Of a DNA stretch of 64,000 bases, positions 38,757 through 52,049 are shown in pieces. The position numbers were made by a program, and so were the translations under genes. The stretch is from an uncultured Bacteroidia bacterium. Its GTDB lineage: Bacteria; Bacteroidota; Bacteroidia; Bacteroidales; UBA932. Under the pieces are notes generated by a model. The model was given only the letters and a program-made list of their open reading frames with translations. It ran no database searches and had not been told where the DNA came from. The stretch is taken from contig CACWOH010000013.1 in assembly GCA_902762435.1 (NCBI GenBank), forward strand, positions 1-64,000, given 5' to 3'. Numbering within the stretch: position 1 is the stretch's first letter; every line of letters starts with the position of its first letter.

Positions 38757-40244
38757 ATGAAATACTACGACAAACTCATTTTCGAACTCTCCAAGCCCGG
38801 CCGCATCGGCTTCTCCCTTCCCAGACCTGCTGACCGGCAGCAGCTGCCCTTCGGAAACACTGCCACCCTCGGCACGTTAAGAGGGGGGACCGCAAGCGAA
38901 GCGCAGCGGTGGGGTCCGAAGGACGTTTCCGAAGGGCAGGCTGCTGCTGGCAGCAAAGTATGCAGTAAAGTATGGCGGGAGGCTCCGCTGGACCTGCCGG
39001 AAGTCAGCGAGGTGGACGTGGTACGCCACTACACGAACCTCAGCCAGATGAACTTCGGCGTCGACACAGGCTTCTACCCGCTCGGCTCCTGCACGATGAA
39101 ATACAACCCCAAGATCAACGAAGAGATCGCGGGGATCCCGGGATTCGCCGGCCTGCACCCCCTGCAGCCCAACGAAACAGTCAAAGGCGCCTTCGAAGTC
39201 CTCGTGGGGATGGACAAGGCCCTCGCCGCCATCACGGGCATGAAGCACTTCACCTTCCTGCCCTGCGCCGGCGCCCACGGTGAACTCACCGGCCTGATGC
39301 TGATGCGCGAATACCACATGAGCCGCGGCGACACGGCCCGCACCAAGGTCATCGTCCCCGACAGCGCCCACGGCACCAACCCCGCCTCGGCGGCGGTCTG
39401 CGGCCTGGACATCGTCGTCGTCAAGTCCAAGGAAGACGGCCTCGTGGACGTCGAAGCCCTCAAGGGCCTGCTCGGCCCGGACATCGCGGGCATCATGCTC
39501 ACGAACCCCAACACGCTGGGCCTCTTCGAGCGCGACATCAAGCAGATCGCGGAACTCGTCCACGGCTGCGGCGGCCTGCTCTACTACGACGGGGCGAACA
39601 TGAACCCGCTGCTGGGCATGGTCCGTCCCGGCGACATGGGCTTCGACATCATGCACCTGAACCTGCACAAGACCTTCTCGACGCCCCACGGCGGCGGCGG
39701 TCCCGGCGCGGGTCCGGTCGGCGTGTCCGACAAGGTGCTCCCGTTCCTGCACATCCCGCGCGTGAGCGGCTTCCACGGCAACTTCGGCATCATCCTGCGC
39801 GCCTACGCGTACATCCTGATGCTGGGCCGTGAGCACATCAAACTGGCGGGCAAGTTCGCCACCCTGAGCGCCAACTACATCAAGGAATCGCTCAAGGACT
39901 GCTACAAGCTGCCCATCCCGTCCGTCTGCAAGCACGAGTTCGTCTTCGACGGTCTGCTGGACGACAACGGCGTCACCACGCTGGACGTCGCCAAGCGCCT
40001 GCTGGACTACGGCTTCCACGCGCCGACCATCTATTTCCCGCTCCTGTTCCACCAGGCCATCATGATCGAGCCCACGGAAACCGAGTCGCTCGAGACCCTG
40101 GATGCGTTCATCGCCGTGATGCGCAAGATCGCGGAAGAGGCGAAGACGGACCCGGAGTTGCTGCACGGTGCGCCGCACAACACGCCCATCGGCCGTCCCG
40201 ACGAGACGACCGCCGCGCGCCAACCGGTCCTGAAATATGAATAA
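38757..40244 (+). CDS. gcvPB: glycine dehydrogenase (decarboxylating) subunit 2, with in-frame palindromic insert
   Basis: 495 aa. The PLP-binding Lys is in the conserved segment [21 protein letters not shown]. The N-terminus is normal up to [10 protein letters not shown] (residue 22). The next roughly 52 residues, rich in Gln/Gly/Ala/Arg, do not look like the family and coincide with a palindromic DNA element. The normal sequence resumes at [20 protein letters not shown]. The frame stays open, so the protein may still be made with the insert in a surface loop near the N-terminus. Confidence 0.92.
38830..38953. repeat. palindromic repeat element inserted in gcvPB
   Basis: Inverted arms 38830-38858 and 38925-38953. 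The inner 15 bp, CTGCCCTTCGGAAAC (38844-38858), pair perfectly with 38925-38939; the outer part pairs with a one-base shift (GCAGCAG blocks). The 66-nt centre contains a smaller GGACC...GGTCC inverted pair (38887-38891 and 38913-38917). Immediately after it is a direct repeat AAAGTATG (38955-38962 and 38967-38974). Confidence 0.8.
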
Positions 40245-51923: not shown

Positions 51924-52049
51924 AACGGCGTACAGGCAGGTTGCCGGAGCAAACCGTGCCGCCCGCGGCAATGAGCGGGAGGGGCCCACGAAGTGGGAGG
52001 GACGGAGCGAAGCGAAGGGTTTGCGCAGGCAAGCCTGCCTGTCGCCGTT
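51924..52049. repeat. palindromic repeat element downstream of the DMT transporter
   Basis: Inverted arms 51924-51955 and 52018-52049 match over about 30 nt with small gaps (shared blocks AACGGCG, ACAGGCAGG, TTGCC, GCAAACC). The centre carries two further hairpins, CCCGC...GCGGG (51963-51979) and CCCAC-GAA-GTGGG (51985-51997), and a GGAGCGAAGCGAAGG stretch. The element is GC-rich against AT-rich flanks. It ends exactly on the transporter stop codon. It may be related to the insert in gcvPB. Confidence 0.75.

Follow-up and report, generated by a model that had tools for sequence, protein, structure and literature searches.

The gcvPB gene of an uncultured Bacteroidia bacterium, located in the 64,000-nucleotide stretch of DNA analyzed here (the window), stays open through a sequence that is a palindrome at the DNA level. 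This raises the question of what such a sequence is, and how it came to lie within a housekeeping gene. The answer that we consider probable is that the sequence is one copy of a small mobile palindrome, non-autonomous and now spread across a single Bacteroidales genus; template switching between the arms would rewrite them and could flip the core. In what follows, G000 is the genome to which the window belongs (2.3 Mb), other G handles are sampled genomes, and L handles are loci or contigs.

An in-frame palindrome in gcvPB

The features of the window that belong to this question are as follows.

38757..40244, + strand: host gene gcvPB (glycine dehydrogenase subunit 2), an ORF open through the element; NF003346, 672.9 bits against a cutoff of 441
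38834..38950, + strand: palindromic element, arms and core, from the inverted repeats, the match to covariance model R1 (38841-38943, 91.1 bits), and length comparison
38834..38858, + strand: 5' arm, a GGCAGCAG block and then CTGCCCTTCGGAAAC, from the inverted repeats; it partly overlaps QQLP codons that are found in some uninserted relatives too
38859..38924, + strand: conserved core; 97% identity between query positions 27-98 and copy G000:C1:3-74, and family alignment A1
38861..38885, + strand: first core structure, in which CCCTC (38866-38870) pairs with GAGGG (38881-38885); CCCGT/ACGGG in other copies
38889..38910, + strand: second core hairpin, ACCGC...GCGGT, from DNA and RNA folds
38914..38924, + strand: third core hairpin, GTCC-GAA-GGAC, from folds; longer in other copies (GTCCGGC-GCA-GCCGGAC)
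38925..38950, + strand: 3' arm, GTTTCCGAAGGGCAG and then GCTGCTGCTGG, from the inverted repeats
38950..38973, + strand: imperfect direct repeat of 12 nt, GCAGCAAAGTAT/GCAGTAAAGTAT, bordering the insert on its right; halves 38950-38961 and 38962-38973, 92%
51938..52037, + strand: a further family copy, divergent in sequence; R1 score 56.7 bits, E 1.1e-14

An earlier note on this DNA had described a palindrome inserted in frame within gcvPB. This is borne out by a perfect 15-bp inverted repeat (38844-38858 and 38925-38939), continued outward by a second arm block (38834-38844 and 38940-38950, 91%), inside the ORF at 38757-40244. The direct repeat that the note placed around AAAGTATG at the right edge is also present. 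Its figure of about 52 inserted residues, with the family sequence passing straight from GFSLP to LPEVSE, has to be revised: 98 residues precede NFGVD in G000, against 59 (G081, G008, G124, and G015) or 63 (G096) in uninserted relatives, which gives a net insertion of about 35 to 39 residues (105 to 117 nt). Part of the left arm falls on a QLPKG-like stretch that also occurs in G081, G015, and L040.

The insert folds far better than 200 shuffled sequences, both as DNA (z -7.7) and as RNA (z -7.2, the fold that the earlier note had suggested examining), with no shuffle as good in either case. Within the first core helix, two pairs are changed on both sides (in 5 and 4 of 34 sequences), and reading of the copies points to a possible TGCC/GGCA pairing around this structure. 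No Rfam match was found at the element up to an E value of 5 in 20 loci; two sub-threshold matches lay elsewhere. At the protein level, the best stretch of GcvPB against solved structures covers residues 69-338 (PDB 1wyt_B). The AlphaFold2 model from 23 sequences is of too low confidence to be relied on (mean pLDDT 63.9, below 50 for residues 1-118), and no secondary structure is predicted across the insert in it.

A repeat family dispersed in one genus

A BLAST search of G000 with the insert (157-bp query) returned 28 places. Covariance model R1, built on 34 copies, gave 39 matches in the same genome at E ≤0.001, and 31, 18, 32, and 14 in G113, G166, G081, and G008, respectively. Across the genus, 128 of 151 sampled genomes match (54 of the 63 of high quality) in a scan with stricter filters and up to 25 scored candidates per genome. 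Of 198 genomes sampled from the order, 4 match at E ≤1e-5: the present one, one from another genus of the family, with 5 copies, and two from other families, with 1 and 13 copies.

Each copy consists of a structured, conserved core of about 65 to 75 nt within a long inverted-repeat stem. The core comes in at least three subtypes (grouped by reading) and is closed by AAAC/GTTT-like ends, from which long arms of differing sequence extend. In longer variants at two loci, L032 and L050, a different structured stretch is fused to the first half of the core. Model matches also lie upstream of gcvPB on two more distant public Bacteroidales contigs (L046:1146-1255 and L047:1091-1270).

Arms vary more than cores and remain complementary

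The arms were examined in 128 distinct core-pattern matches with their flanks, placement being equally free in the cross comparisons between copies. A 14-nt arm complementary at no fewer than 11 positions was found for 103 of the 128, against 139 of 1,523 cross comparisons. The outer-flank, frame, and core/arm pair tests used only these 103 (L039, L041, L154, L233, and L030 are among the 25 dropped), and the within-copy arm figure of 92% is inflated by that selection. Complementarity extends outward: over the next 45 nt per side it is 12.4 within copies against 6.7 across them, and 57 of 94 copies exceed the 99th percentile of the cross comparisons. The 5' arms of 94 copies are only 46% identical to one another over 14 nt. 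Among pairs at non-homologous sites, 79 have cores with an identity of 97% or more; in 31 of these the arms are at most 60% identical, and in 6 more than 85%. Whether sites were homologous was decided from the ungapped identity of their flanks, and a few of the 79 may be orthologous. As far as sequence comparison goes, the arms are thus more variable than the cores and yet complementary.

The same is seen between close relatives. G113 and G166, which are 97% identical in gcvPB, have an identical core at the same site of a DEAD-helicase gene, in opposite orientations and with different arms. These arms sit between native codons, and a search of both genomes for the arm of the G113 copy, allowing up to 2 mismatches, found only that copy. 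At the L220 site the G113 and G074 copies are opposite in orientation, while G113 and G166 agree. In the gene of a FAD-dependent protein, G008 and G074 have arms that differ at matching positions and have changed in step. By reading, L029 (G000) and L124 (G015) are copies beside similar flanking codons, again with different arms. In gcvPB of G064, the conserved GYSL codons run within the 5' arm and the 3' arm is its near-inverse; therefore, host sequence has been copied there. The host derivation of arms is clear at this site and suggestive at a few others. A host origin of all arms as a general rule was rejected, given the helicase arms between native codons and the empty sites corresponding to L227 and L217, which lack arm sequence.

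Other copies share their arms. In G081 there is a burst of 11 near-identical copies (L264-L274) in which long arms are shared along with the core, L271 differing on the left. In G328, which belongs to a different family of the order, pairs of copies lie in divergent orientation (L304-L306), with arms common to several copies. The arms can therefore travel too.

These observations bear on an alternative that we regard as unlikely but worth serious attention, namely, that the arms are part of the element itself and that selection keeps them paired for recognition by a DNA-hairpin-binding Y1/RAYT transposase, their variation being ordinary compensatory evolution and inverted copies at one site being independent insertions. 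The movement of arms with the core in the G081 burst, the arms common to copies in G328, and the co-occurrence of Y1 genes with the elements (see below) favor this view. It fits poorly with the widely different arms on many near-identical cores, and between sister species at one site, and with the inclusion of conserved host codons in the arm of G064; moreover, the three Y1 genes examined in G000 have no flanking R1 copies.

A different reading, which we hold only tentatively, is that the core alone is mobile and that neighboring DNA is copied at each site to make and remake the arms, with the core able to flip between them. The arms would then be made by fold-back or template-switch synthesis primed at the closing stem of the core, and the element, if this reading is true, would be a palindrome that takes its inverted repeats from the host. 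One locus, L275 (ksgA of G081), contains a palindrome of 40 nt without mismatch, the right half of which is native sequence coding for VLEIGP; this may reflect a fold-back event or an assembly artefact.

Under the mobile-palindrome explanation that we favor, a non-autonomous element made up of a core in an inverted-repeat stem would insert at dispersed sites. After insertion, polymerase template switching between the arms would maintain their complementarity while rewriting them, could copy adjacent host codons into the opposite arm, and could flip the core. Template switching between inverted repeats is described for yeast genes, where it homogenizes the arms and inverts the spacer (PMC8604942), and the same source gives one example in which repeats were lengthened. 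Of the processes considered, it is the best account of arms that are complementary and yet differ, of arms that hold host codons, and of inverted cores. Independent insertions could also account for inverted copies at one site.

Copies within genes mostly preserve the reading frame

Copies of the family lie within many protein-coding genes. Pfam domains are found on both sides of the element in RibF, TldD, TldE, a SpoU methylase, RsmF, a tyrosine recombinase, an HI0933-like protein, a DEAD helicase, UvrD, PolA, and a FAD-dependent protein. Domains also flank it in a HemN-like radical SAM protein, the second one below its cut-off. In YgiQ the element lies within one domain, and in DsbD, DnaX, an HHH protein, a methyltransferase, and a THUMP-like protein a domain is found on only one side. 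The GltD gene of G000 holds half an element. Several of the candidate frames searched, including the + frames of L211-L214, gave no domain.

The effect on the reading frame was assessed for the 103 copies from the codon composition of the flanks only. The flanks are coding on the same strand in 31 copies, on opposite strands in 11, unclear in 58, and too short in 3. Of the 31, 28 are in phase and free of stops, none is in phase with a stop, and 3 are out of phase (binomial probability 6e-11 against one-third; orthologous sites are included and the counts are not independent). The element is antisense to the gene in 17 of the 28 in-phase copies and sense in 11, and five of its six frames are used. 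Because both orientations and five of the six frames are read, there is no conserved peptide; one was looked for and excluded. A copy has on average 3.9 of its 6 frames open, against 2.8 for shuffled sequence. In rlmB of G166 (L183), the gene looks frame-broken at its insert.

If the mobile-palindrome explanation holds, insertions into coding sequence would persist only where the frame is kept, no stop is introduced, and a loop or linker tolerates the added residues. The survival of only such insertions may be why the same housekeeping-gene sites are filled in several species.

One alternative is a structured element that remains untranslated and works as RNA, through self-removal, bypass during translation, or regulation; the strong fold and the pairs changed on both sides of the first core helix speak for it. 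We consider this improbable. Preservation of phase and absence of stops in 28 of 31 copies would be unneeded were the RNA removed, 17 of those 28 copies are antisense to the gene, and the 20 loci searched gave no Rfam match at the element.

Filled and empty sites

The gcvPB genes of the genus were compared at 30 loci, the best among 123 matching genomes; the region is lacking in G095. The loop carries the element in 7 of the 30, in the orientation of the gene (+) in G000, G064, G117, and G004 and reversed (-) in G113, G166, and G074, and none of the 22 other readable genes gives a model match at the loop. The earlier note had named the same residues, conserved at the protein level in all close relatives, as the outcome that would point to an ordinary family insert. 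That is not what is seen: the close relatives G096, G081, G008, G124, and G015 have no model match at the loop. By eye, the loops of G115 and G127 may be degenerate or deletion remnants. Short stretches in gcvPB of G127 (L156) and G124 (L152) are perhaps deletion scars of past inserts, or else original target sequence. Among the 25 gcvPB genes printed from 80 named public contigs, some of which may be of the same species as the sampled genomes, L039 (+) and L041 (-) carry the element. Another palindrome occupies the same loop in L042.

Flank searches and alignments gave further sites that are occupied in one species and vacant in another, of which the following are examples. The HI0933 site is filled in G081 and empty in G096, G166, G113, G124, and G008; G113 and G081 have a filled ksgA site, which is empty in G166 and G000; the gltD site is filled in G081, holds the half element in G000, and is empty in G124, G113, G166, and G008; and one intergenic copy is present in G113 with an empty site in G166. 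A possible 6-nt target-site duplication (TTGTCA) was noted at one filled/empty pair, and none is evident in the other aligned pairs. No insertion or excision event was observed. The sequences demonstrate a dispersed family with in-frame intragenic copies in both orientations and with filled and empty orthologous sites; we infer that the element probably moves by DNA transposition.

A classical MITE, with sequence-specific terminal repeats and a DDE transposase, would have the size and the inverted-repeat ends seen here. We judge it very improbable, given that the copies have no common terminal sequence (the 5' arms show the low identity reported above) and that no target duplication recurs among the aligned pairs. 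The loci that were read contained no autonomous element with the same ends. An ordinary lineage-specific protein insert in GcvPB, which an open insert in a variable loop might suggest, is practically untenable and already refuted: the same DNA occurs at one loop in opposite orientations and different frames, and it recurs in many other genes and between genes. An assembly artefact of metagenome bins is hardly credible either. Draft assemblies make up most of the genomes, and in G000 several contigs terminate at a copy, but the family occurs in 128 of 151 genomes, including the 5-contig G113, and on the named public contigs L039 and L041.

Relation to known palindromic elements

The earlier note had likened the insert to the Rickettsia palindromic elements (RPEs), and dispersal in the genome together with filled and empty gcvPB loops supports a mobile palindrome of that kind. 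RPEs are short palindromic repeats, given as 105 to 146 bp (PMC2229807) or about 150 bp (PMC10969869), found in frame in unrelated housekeeping genes and also between genes (PMC2229807, PMC10969869). By this described behavior the present family is alike, with in-frame copies in unrelated protein genes and copies elsewhere. It differs in its host, a genus of Bacteroidales, and in its long, mostly copy-specific arms, where a 12-bp terminal repeat is listed for RPEs (PMC2229807). Such shared terminal inverted repeats are not seen among the 94 copies compared (46% identity of 5' arms), with exceptions in G081 and G328.

In-frame intragenic palindromes are already known in several bacterial groups according to PMC3733652, which places GTAG/CGTC REPs inside genes, including those of DNA polymerase I, UvrD, and DNA repair, and reports CGTC repeats in Bacteroidetes without a dedicated transposase. 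The present family resembles REPs and REPINs as described there in being palindromic, dispersed in many copies, and located within genes, among them polA and uvrD. REPs measure 20 to 40 bp and bear a tetranucleotide tag at one end (PMC3733652), whereas the unit here is about 110 to 160 nt, has a core of three structures, and shows no evident fixed end tag. By inspection, the ends of the element look copy-specific, and CGTC/GACG is internal, beside the third hairpin in many copies. A Y1 gene flanked by the repeat, a feature of REPs, was not found at the three Y1 genes examined in G000. Because a flanked transposase in G000 and shared terminal repeats are both lacking, we set the family apart from REPs and RPEs. 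Long inverted repeats are also known inside functional coding genes of Nematomorpha mitochondria (PMC6649704), the abstract of which reports no dispersed core.

We recognized no description of the present family in the literature searched, which did not extend to subscription journals and preprints. Within it, the in-frame behavior of the palindrome is not new, and the family, its host group, and the behavior of its arms seem to be. With this family, protein-coding mobile palindromes, of which those of Rickettsia are the best known, reach into a genus of Bacteroidales sampled in more than 150 species, and many natural experiments of in-frame insertion in housekeeping genes become available. 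The fixed core with largely copy-specific, complementary arms makes the origin, persistence, and change of intragenic palindromes directly testable, and may provide a bacterial system for the study of arm homogenization and spacer inversion by template switching within genes.

Y1 transposases as candidate mobilizers

Matches to Y1_Tnp (E ≤0.01) were found in 117 of the 151 genus genomes. Their presence is associated with that of the element (Fisher P 1.1e-4 for all genomes and 0.029 for those of high quality, uncorrected for phylogeny), and the counts of the two correlate (Spearman 0.50 in 151 genomes and 0.56 in the 63 of high quality, likewise uncorrected and with up to 25 candidates counted per genome). 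Elements without a Y1 match occur in 21 genomes and Y1 matches without elements in 10. On the basis of this co-occurrence, a Y1 (RAYT-like) transposase is a candidate for mobilizing the element.

At the three G000 Y1 genes inspected, a fourth, weak match being left out, no R1 copy lies alongside. In Bacteroidetes, the genes of Y1 subclass 2.6 (RAYT group 5) are described beside "atypical secondary structures" with copies elsewhere (PMC6006769). The likeness to that report is in the host phylum and in a palindrome near Y1 genes, also at the three of G000; the difference is that the palindromes at the G000 genes are not R1 copies. Near the Y1 genes, 9,310 bases contain 3 inverted repeats, and 54,848 control bases contain 6, a weak signal. 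Each of the three genes has a different palindrome within about 50 bp (L009:784-859, L010:1968-2057, and L011:503-602).
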